DNA of 64,000 nucleotides, taken from Hyaloperonospora brassicae. Taxonomy: Eukaryota > Oomycota > Peronosporomycetes > Peronosporales > Peronosporaceae. Position numbers and translations under genes: made by a program. Location of the stretch: the NCBI GenBank assembly GCA_947650285.1, contig CANTFL010001122.1:1-64000 (forward strand), given 5' to 3'. Shown piece by piece: positions 1 through 37,832 of the stretch. Under the pieces are notes generated by a model that did no database searches, had not been told where the DNA came from, and was given only the letters and a program-made list of their open reading frames with translations. Numbering within the stretch: the first letter of the stretch is position 1; every line of letters begins with the position of its first letter.

Positions 1-125
1 GACTTAATTTATTAATATAACAGTTCTACTTTTACCCTACCTACGCTTCCTCGCTTGCCACGTGTACGTCCGTCGGGGCACCCAAATCCCTTGCGTTAAG
101 TTACGCAAGGGTGTGCCCCGTTACA
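1..125 (+). mobile_element. 3' end of a Gypsy LTR, cut by window edge
   Basis: This segment matches the last ~125 bp of the solo LTR at 1221-1611 almost base for base and ends in the same CCCCGTTACA. The sequence after position 125 does not resemble the primer-binding region of Gypsy-1. It is therefore either a solo LTR or the 3' LTR of an element lying outside the window. The terminal hairpin (CCCTTGCG stem) seen in the other copies is present. Confidence 0.85.
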
Positions 126-29790: not shown

Positions 29791-29890
29791 ATTTTTGTAA
29801 TTATTATTATTATTAAGGACACGGCACTGCTGGTCGAATTTCGACACTGCTGTGACCAACTGTCGATCTTTCAGCGAGTCCAGCGCTCGG

Positions 29891-30264
29891 TGTAACGGGG
29901 CACACCCTTGAGTGAGCTTAACGCAAGGGTATCGGTGCCCCGACAGACGTACACAAGGCAAGCGAGGAAGCGTAGGTAGGGTAAAAGCAGAACTGTTATA
30001 TTAATATAATTAAGTCTTTTAACTACCGTCTCTCTGTTTGACTTAACTTAATTATGCTAATATAACTGAGTGTATGGTGACGTCTCGTCACCACTCATTG
30101 CGCGCGTCTTGCGGCGATTGGTGGGTTGATATCATCAAGATATCAACCAATGAACAGACTCTTTGGTCGGCCCTTCAATATCACCGCTTCGGTGATATTG
30201 TTTAACGAATATTCAACTTCATATTCTTTATTGTCACTTTTCTTAAAGTGACAATTCCATTACA
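29891..30264 (-). mobile_element. Gypsy-1 3' LTR
   Basis: 374 bp, against 391 bp for the 5' copy. The difference is a 17-nt deletion at the U3 start (plus-strand right end, near 30260), which removes most of the terminal palindrome TGTAACGGG...CCCGTTACA and leaves TGTAATGG. Six of the seven substitutions against the 5' LTR fall in the outermost ~45 bp at the other end (29891-29935). It holds the conserved LTR hairpins. Confidence 0.93.
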
Positions 30265-30276
30265 TCACCCCCCCTT
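30265..30276 (-). other. Gypsy-1 polypurine tract
   Basis: On minus the sequence reads AAGGGGGGGTGA immediately before the 3' LTR. This is the expected position and composition for the plus-strand primer of reverse transcription. Confidence 0.8.
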
Positions 30277-30390
30277 AACTGATAGTCACCGTGTGACTAT
30301 CGAAAATAATGGCGGCCACCCGTTGGTCACCATTGGGACAGGGAGCACTTGTTGGGTCCGTTCCATTCACTTTCCGCTCGACCTCGCATA

Positions 30391-31283
30391 GTAAACATGT
30401 CTATGCGGGGTGACTCAATGCACACAGAGTCTGTGCCTGTGCCAGCTTCTTCGGCAGACGATTCGTCGTCTGCTGCTCGTTCTTCGCCTGCAGCAAGAGG
30501 TGCTGCAGGTGCACGCGGTAGAGCACCGCGTGCGCATGATGACCCCACATTGAGGTCATCTACTCTGGCGAGTCAGACGTGTCTGACTCGGGCAATGCTG
30601 CAGAGGCGTCTCGCTCACCGGCGACGCCTCAGTGTTCGTCAAGGCCACTGCCGAACGAACGGACTCGTGAGTTGCATCACAGTCTGTTCGGCAGTGATGA
30701 CGATGATCAGGGCGGTGAGGAATATTATTCCTTACCACCACCGGCTCGTGCCTCTTCGCACGAGCGTGATGAAGATGGCGTGAGCCGTCGTCAATCTGGG
30801 AGCCGTGGTACCGACAAAGGTACCACTGTGAAGCGTGATGAGCTGAAGCCGTGGCGTTTGCCCGAACGTCTCATCAATAGATTGTCTCACGAGACAAGCC
30901 AACACCATCGAATGCCCTTATCCGATGCGACTGAGCTTCACGGCTTGAATCCCAGCGCGACCATCTTTCGCGCTAAAGAAGAATTTTATCTTGATGTCTT
31001 CCTTAGACATCGTTGGTACAACAGCAACCAAAAGCGTGACAAAGCCTCGATTTTGGCTGCGTGGAACGCGTTCGTCCAAAACGTAAAGAATTTTGGACGA
31101 GAAGGGTGGCTCAAGAAACTTGAAGCGACACGCCTCAGGTTCGAAAAGCGAACGCCAACCGGTGCCAGGTACCGGTTGCACTGTTTGTCGAGTGAGGCAG
31201 ACATCCCTTGCCTCACATTGGAAGCCCTTGTGCGAGTTGTGTTGACAACTCGCAGCGTGCACATAGGGACGTGTATTCCCTAA
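30391..31283 (+). pseudogene. Antisense ORF tract of Gypsy-1, 5' part
   Basis: Runs opposite to gag-pol, between the chromodomain and the 3' LTR, where no sense coding is visible. From an ATG at 30391 one frame is open with a Ser/Ala/Pro-rich acidic N-terminus. Near 30550 it shifts by one base into a 234-codon frame (30579-31283). That part encodes an acidic stretch (FGSDDDDQGGEE) and then a helix-rich, ordinary-looking domain (KEEFYLDVFLRHRWYN, ILAAWNAFVQNVKNFGREGW). No family recognised. The next ORF (31319-32001) is probably its continuation after another small indel. Transcription could start in or near the 3' LTR on the antisense strand. Gypsy-2 has a counterpart in the same place. Confidence 0.5.
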
Positions 31284-31318
31284 GTTTGCCCTGGGGATGA
31301 TCACACATCTCGGAGGAG

Positions 31319-32001
31319 ATGCGTGACGCGATTGCAAACTTGCAATCCGTCTACAAGCGCCTAGGGCGCGTGTTTACCGATGGGCCCCAGGACTCATCGG
31401 ATGGGTCTCGTCATACTGGCGGACGAGACCTTCAACATCCATCAACATCTGAGAGCGGGGCTCCCAGCTGTTCCAAGAGGGTGGATACCCCCGCCACTGG
31501 ACGAAATAGCTCGTCCTTGATCCTGAATCGCCACGGTGATTCAAGATACGGTCCACTTGAAAGCGTTGATCACCTTGAGCATTTATTAAAGGATGTGGTG
31601 GAGGAGGAAAGACCTCCTTCAGATGATTCGGCTCACCATCTCGACGCTTACGAGATGGATCGCGCAATCGATGAATTGCATGATGATTGAAGCACGAGCG
31701 CGACCGGCGCTACGCTTTGACTGATACCGTGCGGAAAAACCGCAAGAGTCGCGAGGCTGATCGGGCGAGGGATCGCGCCGATTATGCCACGGCGCAGCTT
31801 CAGGTCGAGCGGGATGTCCGCTCCCTATTCGGCGAGCTGGCGACAGCTCGCGGGGAGATATCTCGGTTGAGTTCCGAGGTATCATATCTGCGCGACCAGA
31901 CGGATCGTCTGGAGTGCGAACGCAAGAACTTGATGGATGTTCTTGAACGTGGGGGCTATCTTCACCGGAAGAAGAAGGCTCGTACTGACAGTACGGCCTG
32001 A
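31319..32001 (+). pseudogene. Antisense ORF tract of Gypsy-1, coiled-coil 3' part
   Basis: Two frames, 31319-31690 and 31687-32001, are separated by a one-base shift at about 31685. The second encodes a clear coiled coil (QLQVERDVRSLFGELATA, ISRLSSEVSYLRDQTDRLE) and a basic tail (HRKKKART), ending at TGA 31999-32001. The tract is antisense to the integrase C-terminus and chromodomain. A single missing base at 31683-31689 would account for the break both here and in the sense chromodomain frame, so both strands seem once to have been open through this site. Function unknown; a role as a regulator or nucleic-acid-binding accessory protein is only a guess. Confidence 0.5.
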
Positions 32002-32540
32002 GCCTCCCCACGTAAAACGTAGGATGCGTGCGCATCTTACGTGGAAATTCGAGTGTGTATGCATTGCCCTTGCGACGCAACACTCGAAATGGCCCAATGT
32101 ATTTCGACAGTAGTTTGCTACTGCCGACACTAGTGACTGCATGTCCAGGTAAGTTTACCGTTGACAGTAGTACTAGGTCGTTAACCTTAAATGAAAGAAC
32201 ATTTGCTCTTCCATTCTTGTCTGCGTTCCGTTTCTGACGGTCCACCGCATTTGCGATGGAGTCCTGAACGAAACGGACTACCGCTTCTCGAGTCAGCAGG
32301 AAGTTCTCTGCTGACTCTATGTTTTGTCTGGCAGTGCGCTTCGTGCGCACTGCTAAGAGATTGCTCTCTTCTTCAGCGAGCTCGTTTAATTCCTCGCTGG
32401 AATAATCGTTGACGATGCTGAATATACTAGCCTCGTCATCATCATCCGAATCAATAATAGCGTCTTCGCTGTTATTGAGATGATCTTCTTAATCGATGTC
32501 GACTTGATCGACATCGGCATCATACGTGACGACGTTAGCG
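31374..32540 (-). pseudogene. Gypsy-1 integrase C-terminus and chromodomain
   Basis: Continues pol after a frameshift near 32.4-32.55 kb. Frame 32350-31619 carries the integrase C-terminal module: FKVNDLVLLST, LGPF-like YIGPFRVLRRKGNAYTLEFP, then HPTFYVGRLRPY. After a further one-base shift near 31685 the frame ending at 31374 encodes a chromodomain: FQVDRIL, then YFVQWRGYPPSWNSWEP. Chromodomains in chromoviral integrases bind histone marks and bias insertion toward heterochromatin. Both frameshifts make this copy non-functional as it stands. Confidence 0.85.
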
Positions 32541-35500
32541 TCGACACATGATGAGCAAGAGCCAAAACGGTTTTTGCTCGAGCGAGTCCCTCCCCCCTTA
32601 TCCAAGAGTCAAACTCTAGAAGGGTGGGCACACGTGGATGGCGTAGGCCATTCACGTAAAACGGTGTGTGCTGTGTGGAAGAATGCACCGAATTATTGTT
32701 TGCGAATTCCACCATGGGTAGGAATTCGCTCCAACTCGGGAACGAGTGGACATATCCTCGAAGGATCTCTTCGAGGACACGGTTCGCACGTTCCGTCTGA
32801 CCATCTGTTTCGGGATAACAAGAAGTAGACATCTTCAATCGTGTTCCCAATGTGCGGAACACGGTTTGCCCAAATGCCGCCGTGAACCGAGGGTCACGGT
32901 CGGATACGAGTTCACGGGGTAACCCATGTAGTCTAAAGACCGTGTCTAGAAAGACACGAGCACAACCATGAGCCTTGATCGACTCAGGGACTGCAGCAAG
33001 ATGCACCATCTTGCTGAACTGGTCAACGAACACAAGAATACCATTATTCTTGTGAGCGTCTTCGGTAAACCCGACGACGAAGTCCATTCAAACGGACTGC
33101 CAGCACTCTGCCGGAACAGGTAGAGGCTGCAATGGCGCACGGGATGAAGGACTAGGCTTCACCCGTTGACAAACCTCGCAAGCACGTATGTACTTGCGGA
33201 CAAACTGATACTGGCATGGGCAGTAAAAGTCACGACTTACCGTGAGGTAGGTCTTTTCTCTACCACGATGGCCGCCTGTTGGGGCATCGTGACACTCATA
33301 CATGATGCGTAAACGCAGATCATGATGAGCGGGTACGACTACACGAGGCGTGTCGTCGGCAACAGCTGTATAGTACAGCAATCCGTTGCGTGTACTGTAC
33401 CGATCCGATATGGATCGGTACAAAGCCGGTAAATCTTTCAATATTTTACTGGATGGATTCACCAGATGATCCATCAATCGCAGAAGATCTTTATCTTCCG
33501 CGTATGCCTTTCGTACGTCGTCAAGTAAACTTGACGACGGGACACTGACTGACAGTGTCGCAACAGTGGGCTTAGCTTCACTGTTGGTATGTGCGTCCGG
33601 CTCGAAATAGGGCCGGCGCGAAAGCGCATCAGCGACGACATTGAGTCGTCCTGGTTTTTACTTCACGGAGAAGTTATACTCCGCGAAGAAAGACAGCCAC
33701 CTCTCCATTCTTTGCGAGAGGTGTGGGCTGTTTACGGCCGTGCGTAATGACGCATTGTCCGTATAGACGATGAACGGTCTATCTCCCAATAGATTGACCC
33801 GGAACTTAGCCAGTGCGTACTTCGTGGCAAGGAGTTCCTTGTCATGCACTGGGTAATTGCGTTCGGCTGGTTGCAGCTGACGCGACTGATAACAGACGAC
33901 GCGCTCTGCGCCGTCTGTGTCGTATTGCATCAACGCACAACCGATAGCAAAATCGCTGGCGTCACAGACCACGTGAAACGCTCTGTCCTGATCTGCAATC
34001 GCCAAGATTGGCGATTGCATCAAGCTTTGCATGATACCCTCTAAGGAACGCTGACACTCAGCGTTCCATGACCACTTGACATTTTTCTTGAGCAAGCAAG
34101 AAAGATGAACAGTCATCTCGGCGTTGTTTCGCGAGTACTTGTGCAAGTACGTCGCTAGGTCAAGGAACTTCCTTAGTCCCTTGAAAGCGACTAACACTGG
34201 CCAGTCGGTGATCGCCCTGATCTTTTTGGGATCAGGGCGTACGCCGTGTTTACCCACGATGCACCCAAGAAGTGGTATTTCGCTAGCCGCGAATATACAC
34301 TTCTTGAGGTTGCCGTACAACTTATGATTGCGCATAAGTTGAAGGACTTGACGAACGCGAGTTCTGTGAACTTCAACGTCCGTCTTTCCGTCCATAGCCC
34401 GGCTATGGACGAACACATCGTCGAAGTAACTCGGTGCGAAGTCTCGCACCGGTCTCAACAGATTTGTGACACATCTGTTGAATGTTGCAGGGGCATTGCT
34501 CAGCCCCTGTGGAATCACTAGCCACTCCCACAGCATCCCGCTGGTGGTACTCACTGCCTTGAATGGGATGTCCCGTTCACGCATAAGGATCTGATAGAAC
34601 CCATCCATCAGATCCATGGACGAAAAGATGGTACTCTCTGACATCCCATCTATGATTACGTCCTTCCTCGGTATCGGCGTCAGAGCCGGTACCGTTGCAG
34701 CATTCAACTTGTTGAACGCGTGCACTATGCGCCATCCTCATGTGGGTTTTCGCACACAGAAGGTCGGAGAGCTGTGAGGGGATGTTGATTCCCTCACATG
34801 GTCCGCTGCTAAGCGATCGGCAAAGAACTTGTCGATCGCTAGTACTTGTTCACGAGGCAGTGACCACTGCTTCATGACACAATACTTCGAGCCCGGTCTT
34901 AGCTCGATCTCGTGTCGACTGCCTTTGTCCTTAGGCAACTCGCAAGGTACGGATTCAGGGAACACATCCCTGAATTCGATCAAATCCTTGTACAAAGGAT
35001 TTGCCTGAAGTGACTCCCAGGATTGGGACGCGTATCGATCAATCCGAATCTTCTCATCGCGTTCACTTTCGTCCATCGATGAGCTGCTGAGAACCCGTTC
35101 GTTCTCAGCAAATACTGTTGCCGACCGAATATCGGCCACATACTCATCCTCTGTGACGAGTATGCAGATCTGTTTGACTTTGCCACTACGCAGATCACGC
35201 AAGAACCGTTTCGGTTGTAGCGTTGGCAACTGAGTTATCTCCGAAGTTAACTTCGGAGGCACAATCAGATCAAGCGTATAAGCGCCTACGCTTGATCCGT
35301 CATTGACCGAGACGTTCAACGTCTCGGTTACTTCCTGGGAACTTCTTTCCACAGGTTGCTGAGGGCCTGATCCCTCAGCAAGTGACTCTTGAGGAATTCC
35401 TTCCTCAAGCACGTGGGGACTTATTCCCTCGACGTCTTCTGAATGTGGCTGTGCAACCACAGTCAGGGACCGATCCTCTACGGTCGACTCTCCAGTCGAC

Positions 35501-36281
35501 CTAGGATGTCCATGTTGCCCTTCGAAGGTAACATGTTTCTTTTGTCTAAGATGCTGCCCGCTAGTCATGCATACATGTCCCGGTCCACTCGACTTATTCG
35601 AGTGTTGTACCTTCGGCGCAGCCTGTACTTCTATACAGCCGCCGGGATCTTGCTCCACAGTGTAGTGATCAACTACACTGTGATTTTGTGCAGTCGTGCT
35701 AACGACCGAACCGCAAGTGAGGCCATCGCACTCACTCGCAGAACATCCACACGCTTGTGGACGCTCCAAGATGTTCATCAGATGGCCATCTGATGAACAA
35801 GCAGCAGGCATCTTCACGGATCGATGCTTCCAGCTCACCCTTGACTCGTATTTTCTGAGTCAAGGTAGTCCCAGGATGACATCAAATTTGTCATCCAGAT
35901 CTAGTACGATGAAGTCATCATCGTACTGTTCGCCCTTCAACGTGTAGTGGATTCCTACTACACGTTTCTCAACGGTAATCGATGCGCCTGTTGCAAGGCG
36001 CACCGTCATCCTTGTGAGGGGAATGCCGCGCTCAACGAACTTAAGCCTACGACCCTCTAGTGACTGGCGTCGAACAAACTTGTTCGACGCCTTACAGTCT
36101 ACTAGGGCACGAAGCGACAGATCATTTGTCGCTTCCAACTTCATGGTGATGAACGAAATGTCATCACCAGGTGCAGAGGCACACAATGATTGTGTATCTG
36201 GAGCAACTTTCGTCAAGAGATTTGCAAATTCTCTTGAGGTTGCTGGATCAGTAGGGCGCTCCGCCCCTACTGACCCCGACC
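32541..36281 (-). pseudogene. Gypsy-1 pol: protease, reverse transcriptase, RNase H, integrase
   Basis: One frame runs through the whole region, interrupted by stops at 35860-35862 (TGA, where relatives have Trp after ILGLP), 34738-34740 (TGA), 33658-33660 (TAA) and 33088-33090 (TGA). The protease site reads LVDCKASNKFV, so the Gly that follows Asp-Cys/Ser/Thr in the family is Lys here. RT shows the fingers/palm motifs PQGLSNAP and an intact YFDD at 34417-34428. RNase H begins FHVVCDASDFAIG. Integrase has a HHCC finger ending CEVCQRVKPSP, then MDFVVGF, VSDRDPRF and the TERANRVLEE segment, so the DDE triad is present. The catalytic cores other than protease look intact between the stops. Confidence 0.93.
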
Positions 36282-36288
36282 ATTTTTT
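36248..36288 (-). promoter_or_regulatory. Candidate -1 ribosomal frameshift signal between gag and pol
   Basis: In the gag frame the minus strand reads A AAA AAT at 36288-36282, a slippery heptamer of the X XXY YYZ form. Eight bases later a strong hairpin begins (stem TCAGTAGGG with CCCTACTGA, 36273-36248, one bulged base, short loop). Shifting back one base at this site enters the pol frame, which is open from here through the protease to the first pol stop. The gag stop lies ~15 bases downstream. Because hairpins occur all over this element, the stem alone is weak evidence; the heptamer, the spacing and the exact frame relation make the case. Confidence 0.7.
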
Positions 36289-37397
36289 GATGGCCCGTCT
36301 CGCTGTTGCGGCTTCGCAACAGCGCTGGACCCACGTCCATTGCCCTTTCTGGCGAATGGGCGTCCATTTTGCTCAGTACTGTTTGGTACTGGGCGTGGAT
36401 AACTACACTCGTATGCGTAGTGCCCTAACCTCTGACAGCGATTGCACTTCTGCAATCGCTTGTTGTTTGAAGAGCGAGGTCTCTCGCTCTCAACATAGCA
36501 GAGGTCCATTGGTTCTGGACCTCCGATCTCTTGTCGTCTCGGTGGACGGTAAGAGTTTGAGCTAGCATGAGCCTGTCTCATGCTGAAGTCTTCCTGTTCC
36601 GCGGCTGATATCGCTTCTTCATGCGTATTCAGCTCAAGGCGGAACAGGTGGTTCCTGACGGGCCCTTCCACGAGCCCTTGCATGAACACCGTAATCAACG
36701 TGTGTTCATGAACTGGGTTAGCCGTTATACTACTCGCTAGGAGTCGCATATGTTGTGCGTAAGCGTGCACATCACGCTTACCCTGCTTGAGTTTCAGGAG
36801 CTCTGAGCGAGCCCTGAACTCAGCACGTGGCGGCTCAAACGTTTTTCTGAGCCGGAACTTGAAGTCATCTAGCGACCTAAACACATGTGGGTCGCTACGC
36901 TCGAGTCCCAGGGACCAAGTTTTGGCACGCCCTGCCAAGTAAGTTTGAGCAAATGTGAGTTGTATTAGCTCATCTTCGACGCGACGAGCCCTTAAGGCTC
37001 TGTCGAGTTCGACAAACCATAGTAACAGGGAGTCCTCCAGGATTCCGCTGTACTTGTAGATGTCAACCTTCATGACCTCGGGACGACGTGCATGCGCCAT
37101 CCCGCCCAACAGCAGCTCTGTCTGTTGAGCACCGAGTTCTCTCAACTGCTCGGCCTGTTGTGAGCCTTGCTGGTGAAGCAAGGCTACTTTCTCCCTTTCG
37201 GCAACAAGTTCATTTTGGATGAACTTGGCTATAGCGGCATGTTGTTGGTCTCTGTCTAGATACTCCAACATGGCGCTAATGGCGAGTTCGCCTACGGTAG
37301 AACTCATTCGTTCTACCGCACTCCATTCTATGTCGCTCAAATGGGTAAGCCCTTCACGCGTGGCGTGAAAGGTCTCTTCATCATCCAACATGTTCAT
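36267..37397 (-). CDS. Gypsy-1 Gag (capsid-nucleocapsid)
   Basis: An intact 376-codon ORF with the retrotransposon Gag core (LLWFVELDRALRAR, then FAQTYLAGRAKTW and FKFRLRKTFEPP) and a C-terminal zinc knuckle CNRCQRLGHYAYEC (CX2CX4HX4C), followed by a basic tail. Gag forms the cytoplasmic particle that packages element RNA. It is the only full-length sense ORF left in the element. It starts 45 bases after the LTR, close behind the primer-binding site, so the leader is short. Pol would be made as a Gag-Pol fusion by -1 frameshifting near its end. Confidence 0.92.
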   Translation of the reverse strand: MNMLDDEETFHATREGLTHLSDIEWSAVERMSSTVGELAISAMLEYLDRDQQHAAIAKFIQNELVAEREKVALLHQQGSQQAEQLRELGAQQTELLLGGMAHARRPEVMKVDIYKYSGILEDSLLLWFVELDRALRARRVEDELIQLTFAQTYLAGRAKTWSLGLERSDPHVFRSLDDFKFRLRKTFEPPRAEFRARSELLKLKQGKRDVHAYAQHMRLLASSITANPVHEHTLITVFMQGLVEGPVRNHLFRLELNTHEEAISAAEQEDFSMRQAHASSNSYRPPRRQEIGGPEPMDLCYVESERPRSSNNKRLQKCNRCQRLGHYAYECSYPRPVPNSTEQNGRPFARKGNGRGSSAVAKPQQRDGPSKNGRGQ

Positions 37398-37420
37398 ATT
37401 GGATGTTGTGGTCCTTGGAA

Positions 37421-37438
37421 GGACTACAAAGTGCTACC
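37421..37438 (-). other. Gypsy-1 primer-binding site
   Basis: Three bases inside the 5' LTR the minus strand reads TGGTAGCACTTTGTAGTC. TGG pairs with the CCA tail of a tRNA, and TGGTAGCA is the usual start for initiator-methionine-type primers. Beyond the eighth base I cannot confirm the match, so the tRNA identity is tentative. Confidence 0.65.
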
Positions 37439-37441
37439 AGG

Positions 37442-37832
37442 TCTAACGGGCTACACCCTTGCGTGAACTTAACGCAAGGATATCGGTGCCCCGACAGACG
37501 TACACAAGGCAAGCGAGGAAGCGTAGGTAGGGTAAAAGCAGAACTGTTATATTAATATAATTAAGTCTTTTAACTACCGTCTCTCTGTTTGACTTAACTT
37601 AATTATGCTAATATAACTGAGTGTATGGTGACGTCTCGTCACCACTCATTGCGCGCGTCTTGCGGTGATTGGTGGGTTGATATCATCAAGATATCAACCA
37701 ATGAACAGACTCTTTGGTCGGCCCTTCAATATCACCGCTTCGGTGATATTGTTTAACGAATATTCAACTTCATATTCTTTATTGTCACTTTTCTTAAAGT
37801 GACAATTCCATGTAACGGGCTGACCCGTTACA
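37442..37832 (-). mobile_element. Gypsy-1 5' LTR
   Basis: 391 bp, the same length as the solo LTR at 1221. Read on minus it begins TGTAACGGGTCAGCCCGTTACA, an intact terminal palindrome, and ends ...CCCGTTAGA (one base off the usual TTACA). It carries the LTR hairpins at 37675-37699, 37727-37751 and 37781-37806. Confidence 0.95.

Follow-up and report, generated by a model that had tools for sequence, protein, structure and literature searches.

How a protein-coding retroelement could come to be filled with perfect hairpins is the question raised by a 7.94-kb long terminal repeat (LTR) retrotransposon on the minus strand of a stretch of 64,000 nucleotides, the window, from the oomycete Hyaloperonospora brassicae (assembly GCA_947650285.1, contig CANTFL010001122.1, positions 1–64,000). 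The element lies at window positions 29891–37832. Its Pfam matches follow one another on the minus strand in the Ty3/Gypsy order gag, reverse transcriptase (RT)–RNaseH, integrase, with a chromodomain at the C-terminal end, and by these domain matches it is classed as a Ty3/Gypsy LTR retrotransposon of the chromodomain type.

Hairpins across the element and its family

Hairpins were counted as perfect inverted repeats with a stem of at least 8 bp and a loop of at most 12 nucleotides, with 40 dinucleotide shuffles as the control. The window element holds 78 such hairpins against a shuffle mean of 1.25, an excess of about 60-fold, and 30 against 0.05 with stems of at least 10 bp; 23% of its bases lie inside perfect stems of at least 7 bp. 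The remaining window has 13 hairpins with stems of at least 8 bp in 53.8 kb; its first 2 kb, which contain a solo LTR of this family, were excluded. The original prediction of hairpins from LTR to LTR is borne out in every part of the element: 6 versus 0.02 in shuffles for the 5′ LTR, 4 versus 0.05 for the 3′ LTR, 11 versus 0.15 for gag, 41 versus 0.8 for pol and 16 versus 0.3 for a tract of antisense open reading frames (ORFs) that overlaps pol. Fourteen hairpins with stems of at least 10 bp had been listed as verified, and the same criterion (loop at most 8) gives a total of 29. The longest palindrome, put at 26 bp at 35773–35798, is loop-free as described and in fact two bases longer.

The hairpins have a characteristic geometry. 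Loops are mostly 0–12 nucleotides long with a peak at 4–5; none has a length of 14–20, and there is a small further excess at 21–36 (10 versus about 2). Stem lengths, which fall steeply in shuffles, are level from 7 to 10 bp (with a hump at 8 in copy L055) and drop sharply above 11. Spacing is near random, with mean gaps of 33–44 nucleotides and standard deviations of 35–49 in three sequences.

The protein code accommodates these structures. The open pol frame of copy L035 contains 44 hairpins against a mean of 1.2 and a maximum of 4 in 100 synonymous-codon permutations, and L055 has 33 against a mean of 0.6 and a maximum of 3. The element thus lies far above both dinucleotide and synonymous-codon controls, which rules out chance or composition as the cause. 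Hairpins are written largely at synonymous sites. Stems in the register in which third codon positions face each other, where usable synonymous freedom is least, would make up one third of the total if placement were indifferent; they account for 9 of 59 stems of at least 7 bp in the pol of L035 and 14 of 53 in that of L037, for 10/42, 10/41, 11/44 and 7/36 in L053–L056, and for 3/18 and 2/9 in two related loci, L057 and L060.

The trait belongs to the family rather than to a single copy. An LTR query of the assembly (100.6 Mb, 898 contigs) gave 43 matches, from which 40 candidates were scored and 20 stretches fetched; the family has at least 40 copies. Fifteen near-full copies were aligned with the window copy, and the partial copies L027, L028, L029, L033 and L036 were left out and added later. 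All 16 near-full copies examined are hairpin-rich, with 71–96 hairpins each at a mean pairwise difference of 8.0%, so damage confined to one copy is ruled out. Neither of the two outcomes that were to overturn the original observation, a density no higher than in shuffled controls and absence from other copies, has thus come about. Hairpin sites are common to independent copies and to subfamilies about 15–20% diverged. Less diverged copies have more hairpins (Spearman −0.50, p 0.047; 16 rows, L037 out and L065 in), and in a 2.4-kb RT segment four copies chosen because pol is open have 29–33 hairpins compared with 17–29 in 17 other copies. Read most simply, the hairpins are a property of the lineage while it replicates and decay once a copy has inserted. 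A copy at L027:1791–5413, 77–80% identical and adjoining a fragment of the window family, retains many of these hairpins, now decayed.

Eight further RT loci, picked by frame length to stand for different families, were sampled with one 2.4-kb segment each; not all of them need be distinct families. Two are enriched in hairpins with stems of at least 8 bp: L057 with 11 (synonymous shuffles 0.9, maximum 3) and L060 with 6 (0.6, maximum 2). The other six are near background, L058 having 1 and the remaining five 0–1, and genome-wide mutation is therefore no explanation. L057, L058 and L060 share about 65% RT protein identity with the window family. Hairpin positions in L057 and L060 are mostly different from those of the window family, and about five sites are common to the two, some with compensated pairs. 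An RT tree of 26 rows places L058 nearer to L057 and L060 than the window family is, with moderate support (91/97), and by this placement more than one change in hairpin richness is probable among related families. L058 has short stems in excess over shuffles (length 5, 48 versus 18; length 6, 21 versus 6), with no such excess at 8 bp or more. Within the window, a second Ty3/Gypsy RT (protein 57–58% identical) lies at about 52.2–53.3 kb on the minus strand, in a stretch without hairpin excess. A neighbouring Gypsy element had been said to be without hairpins, and its 10-kb stretch indeed contains 3 with stems of at least 8 bp and 0 with stems of at least 10.

Loop inversions and paired changes

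Comparison of the copies reveals changes of a kind that copying between the halves of a hairpin produces. At several hairpins one copy has an intact stem and a loop that reads as the reverse complement of that in other copies. Inversions with at least three differences occur at nine sites, at eight of which the inverted form is found in a single copy; they comprise seven centres from a 28-row scan (one in two copies), a site in L023 and a near-exact site in L035. Exact inversions of the commonest loop occupy 5 of 2277 cells, whereas 2000 redraws of the same numbers of loop changes average 0.06 and never exceed 2. At the inversion sites of L039 and L035 the sense 3′ arm is also altered to match the 5′ arm, lengthening the stem, and elsewhere in L035 a pair of neighbouring changes within one arm takes a stem from 8 to 11 bp. 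Such stem extensions by arm copying are single cases, without statistical excess.

The raw scan for inversions gave 32 centres, many on windows of 3–4 bases; with at least three differences there were 11, compared with 1 for reversed strings and 8 for complemented strings, and a flanking stem was therefore made compulsory. A candidate in the 5′ LTR of L023 (column 34), where the LTR is diverged and badly aligned, was excluded from the count. Two-change loop flips (7 of 12 exact flips) were also set aside, since a palindromic intermediate allows both forms to arise by single changes. L055 has this intermediate at the column-3342 site.

Paired stem positions also change together. In the integrase segment 7 of 284 pairs are compensatory compared with 0–4 in nine slid controls, and these pairs separate the window family nearly cleanly from the subfamilies; over the full length the count is 5 of 1282 compared with 0–2. 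For pairs in which both positions vary among copies, Watson–Crick pairing is preserved in 746 cells and not in 187; these are counts of cells rather than of events. Private changes on both sides keep the pair in 39 cases and lose it in 23.

Some copies look composite. L037 contributes 11 of the 39 listed compensated double changes, nine of them at alignment columns about 976–2000, a pattern that would fit a mosaic between this copy and a diverged subfamily. The LTR pairs of L021, L023 and L040 are just 86–91% identical despite ordinary overall divergence, which suggests that these LTRs are mosaic or converted.

Weighing the explanations

We favour, with confidence that stands about midway between acceptance and rejection, an explanation in which this chromodomain Ty3/Gypsy lineage is rewritten at short inverted repeats by template switching, through quasipalindrome correction and loop inversion. 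The growing DNA strand would copy one arm and the loop, would next be templated by its own first arm or by a template of opposite polarity, and would then return to its proper template. This would turn the second arm into an exact reverse complement of the first arm and would sometimes flip the loop. As replication cycles accumulate, imperfect inverted repeats that arose by chance would turn into perfect stems of about 7–12 bp with short loops, new hairpins emerging where the protein code permits and mutated stems being perfected again. Purifying selection on the proteins would decide which hairpin places persist, and inserted copies, no longer rewritten, would lose their hairpins by decay. 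Mutation rather than selection would be the main driver, and additional selection in favour of hairpins may contribute. Since hairpins are restricted to some related families, we infer that the rewriting occurs within the element's own replication, in reverse transcription and perhaps in plus-strand synthesis. Quasipalindrome correction by template switching during reverse transcription had been one of two causes originally proposed: the switching finds support in the inversions and in a few single-arm extensions, and its placement in reverse transcription stays at the level of that inference. The stronger proposition is that the element's replication machinery perfects chance repeats as a drive, so that a coding genome of ~8 kb has been re-coded mostly at synonymous sites, and that this has changed more than once. 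We advance it tentatively and lean slightly against it. If true, it would be a heritable property of some reverse transcriptases.

Several results weigh against template switching as the force that maintains the hairpins. The inversions are rare, the 5 of 2277 cells standing beside 1081 cells with single changes at paired stem sites, so that a rate of rewriting sufficient to hold stems perfect is an assumption of the purely mutational account. Private clusters of at least three changes have a nearby reverse-complement source in 4 of 205 cases, all of them in-place loop inversions, and multi-base replacement of an arm from neighbouring sequence was rejected as a candidate on this count. Single-step pairing gains are even between the arms (116 versus 122) in a test partly biased by the choice of helices. 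Clustered gains favour the 3′ arm: a first count, with one-gain and both-arm rows excluded, found four two-gain cases and two inversions, all in the 3′ arm. The ratio of 3′ to 5′ clustered one-arm gains was 8:1 at the first setting (2–9 to 0–2 across nine settings), then 11:5 with a looser threshold and 3:2 in subfamily rows; the arm polarity expected of plus-strand DNA synthesis is thus seen as a hint. Among the 15 LTR pairs compared, none clearly dates an inversion. Compensation is weaker when all helices are pooled, at 43 of 1489 pairs compared with 21–29 in eight slid controls. L035, with pol open over 1338 codons, has an RT segment with only 23 hairpins, so open frame and hairpin number are not tightly coupled. 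Loop inversion during reverse transcription would require a template of opposite polarity, which is assumed, and one assembly is the source of all DNA compared.

The other cause originally proposed was selection for RNA structure. Selection on the sense RNA predicts that G–U is favoured over A–C as a stem mismatch, the expectation from composition being a G–U:A–C ratio of 0.97. Among mismatches common to at least three copies there are 14 G–U, 20 A–C and 20 other over 1282 pairs of the full length, and 16, 21 and 42 over 284 pairs in 29 sequences of the integrase segment. One-mismatch stems in six copies have 12 G–U, 9 A–C and 8 other where shared by at least three, and 6, 17 and 18 where rarer; the four open-frame copies have 9, 7 and 4. 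A clear preference for G–U over A–C is absent in every set of mismatches examined. Folding energies do not separate the strands over the full length. Per 150 nucleotides, full-length L031 folds at −58.8 kcal/mol in sense and −57.9 in antisense, and L039 at −57.6 and −57.5, compared with about −39.5 for base-shuffled sequence; the sense strand is the lower in 56 of 105 windows of L031 and 47 of 105 of L039.

These results disfavour sense-RNA selection as the sole cause, and we consider it unlikely that a string of hairpins was selected in the sense RNA for packaging, stability or evasion of RNA silencing. Such selection does not predict the loop inversions. It would nevertheless account for the compensatory pairs and for the differences in hairpin places between families, as selection on overall structure predicts. 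The four open-frame RT segments also fold strongly, at means of −61 to −64 kcal/mol per 150 nucleotides compared with −40.5 to −42.6 for shuffles that preserve base composition only, and are slightly more stable in sense (by 0.8 to 2.8 kcal, in 17–20 of 31 windows in each copy). The main rival, which we rate as rather unlikely in itself, is selection that is symmetric between strands, acting on single-stranded cDNA, on cruciform DNA or on sense and antisense transcripts, for example by preventing an RNA duplex, with switching merely supplying the variants. It fits the strand symmetry of the stem mismatches and the presence of hairpins in the non-coding LTRs; a conserved antisense gene implies antisense transcripts, and the sharp ceiling on stem length could mean avoidance of duplex sensing. 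Against it, antisense RNA across the entire element has to be supposed, the spacing of hairpins is near random, and two related families are far poorer in hairpins and one more is near background.

Template switching could instead take place on the chromosome, ordinary replication of inserted copies inverting and correcting wherever hairpins exist. PMC8794818 ascribes loop inversion and compensatory switching in RNA genes to DNA replication, and the confinement of the inverted form to a single copy at eight of the nine inversion sites would follow. All DNA would be affected, however, yet the remaining window and six of the eight other RT loci are near background, and hairpins are fewer, not more, in the more diverged copies. 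Chromosomal switching may explain some private inversions; as the general cause we find it quite improbable. That the pattern is a product of chance, composition, assembly or amplification is hardly credible. All copies come from a single assembly and chimeric reads can produce reverse-complement joins, but the excess over shuffles, the recurrence of the same sites in independent copies and diverged subfamilies, and the compensatory stem changes that follow clades all argue against an artefact.

The element and known systems

The features of the element and the sites of loop inversion are collected below.

Features of the window element, its relatives in the window and sites of loop inversion (window coordinates)
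Feature	Position	Strand	Remarks
5′ LTR	37440–37832	−	98% direct repeat with 29889–30188; 6 perfect hairpins, stem at least 8
3′ LTR	29891–30262	−	4 hairpins, stem at least 8
gag-like ORF, 376 aa, Retrotrans_gag	36267–37397	−	Pfam PF03732, E 1.7e-15; 11 hairpins, stem at least 8
pol region, in pieces	31374–36216	−	Pfam domains; frames broken in window copy
RT/RNaseH	33658–34725	−	pol piece
Integrase zinc finger	33088–33477	−	pol piece
Integrase core	32386–33087	−	pol piece
SH3-like domain	31619–32350	−	pol piece
Chromodomain	31374–31667	−	pol piece, PF00385, E 1.3e-13
Antisense ORF tract	30579–32001	+	three pieces in window copy
Solo LTR, same family	1223–1611	−	five hairpins, stem at least 8
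Longest perfect palindrome	35772–35799		28 nucleotides, 14-bp stem, loop-free
Hairpin site, L022 and L037	31660–31685 (approximate)		loop exactly inverted, 4 differences
Hairpin site, L032	33396–33422		loop exactly inverted, 5 differences
Hairpin site, L039	35200–35220 (approximate)		loop inverted, 3′-arm change lengthening stem
Hairpin site, L035	36563–36587 (approximate)		near-exact loop inversion, 3′-arm change lengthening stem
Hairpin site, L065	33516–33539		loop inversion relative to variant in three copies

The LTR pair of the window copy is 98.4% identical across 368 bp. A terminal hairpin of ~20 nucleotides opens its 5′ LTR and is absent from its 3′ LTR. A fragment of an LTR of this family occupies window positions 1–125; like the solo LTR it is inverted, and it has hairpins of the same type. 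A zinc knuckle in the gag-like ORF scores under the Pfam cut-off. In other copies in the genome pol is open over 1339 codons.

In L026, L032 and L039 the antisense tract forms one open frame of 513–578 codons, stop to stop. Among 8000 scored candidates, 11 are homologous to the frame of L026 (6176–7795, minus strand; 540 codons); three are 41–47% identical over more than 90% of the frame, and two carry names from Hyaloperonospora arabidopsidis and Peronospora matthiolae. The four proteins scanned gave no Pfam match above cut-off. On these homologies the tract is a conserved gene for a protein of unknown family. Plant elements of the Tat lineage have an additional antisense ORF 3′ of pol, and the present element is likened to them by layout alone, being a chromodomain element in an oomycete. 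Its RT has counterparts in the chromodomain Ty3/Gypsy elements of Peronosporaceae: the best 120 of 1772 homologues include proteins of Peronospora matthiolae (81% over 308 residues) and P. effusa (87% over 252), as well as many from Phytophthora. Relatives were sought in a viral-contig and a genome-contig collection and none was found. The literature searched, with most subscription papers outside reach, yielded no report of hairpin saturation in Peronosporaceae chromodomain Ty3/Gypsy elements, nor of any retroelement saturated with hairpins.

RNA viruses with genome-scale ordered RNA structure are pervasively folded over coding sequence, in places that vary between relatives. The element resembles them in both respects and differs in that its stems are mainly perfect Watson–Crick stems of 7–12 bp, without wobble preference and with strands near-equal over the full length. 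The case carries a caution, that covariation and strong folding energy in coding sequence need not signal selection for RNA structure.

Quasipalindrome-associated mutation in E. coli, in which the nascent strand templates itself, is described in PMC7202029. The likeness lies in imperfect inverted repeats being turned perfect; that account is of bacterial hot spots and reporters, whereas here some 80–100 hairpins stand in one element. How template-switch mutations give rise to RNA hairpins and maintain them is the subject of PMC8794818 (Monttinen and Loytynoja, PNAS 2022), which treats the origin of perfect hairpins, and the roles of mutation and selection in arm matching, as an open question. 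With at least 40 copies, some 70–100 hairpins in each, and relatives both with and without the trait, the family is a natural experiment: it allows one to measure template switching, the polarity of the switching and how far it depends on a particular reverse transcriptase. Like the cases in that study, the element has loop inversion, a few stem extensions and compensatory changes of the kind made by reverse-complement copying between stem halves. Those cases are RNA genes (ribosomal RNA and microRNA loci) with changes ascribed to DNA replication, whereas here a protein-coding retroelement is saturated over its full length and reverse transcription is the suspected step.

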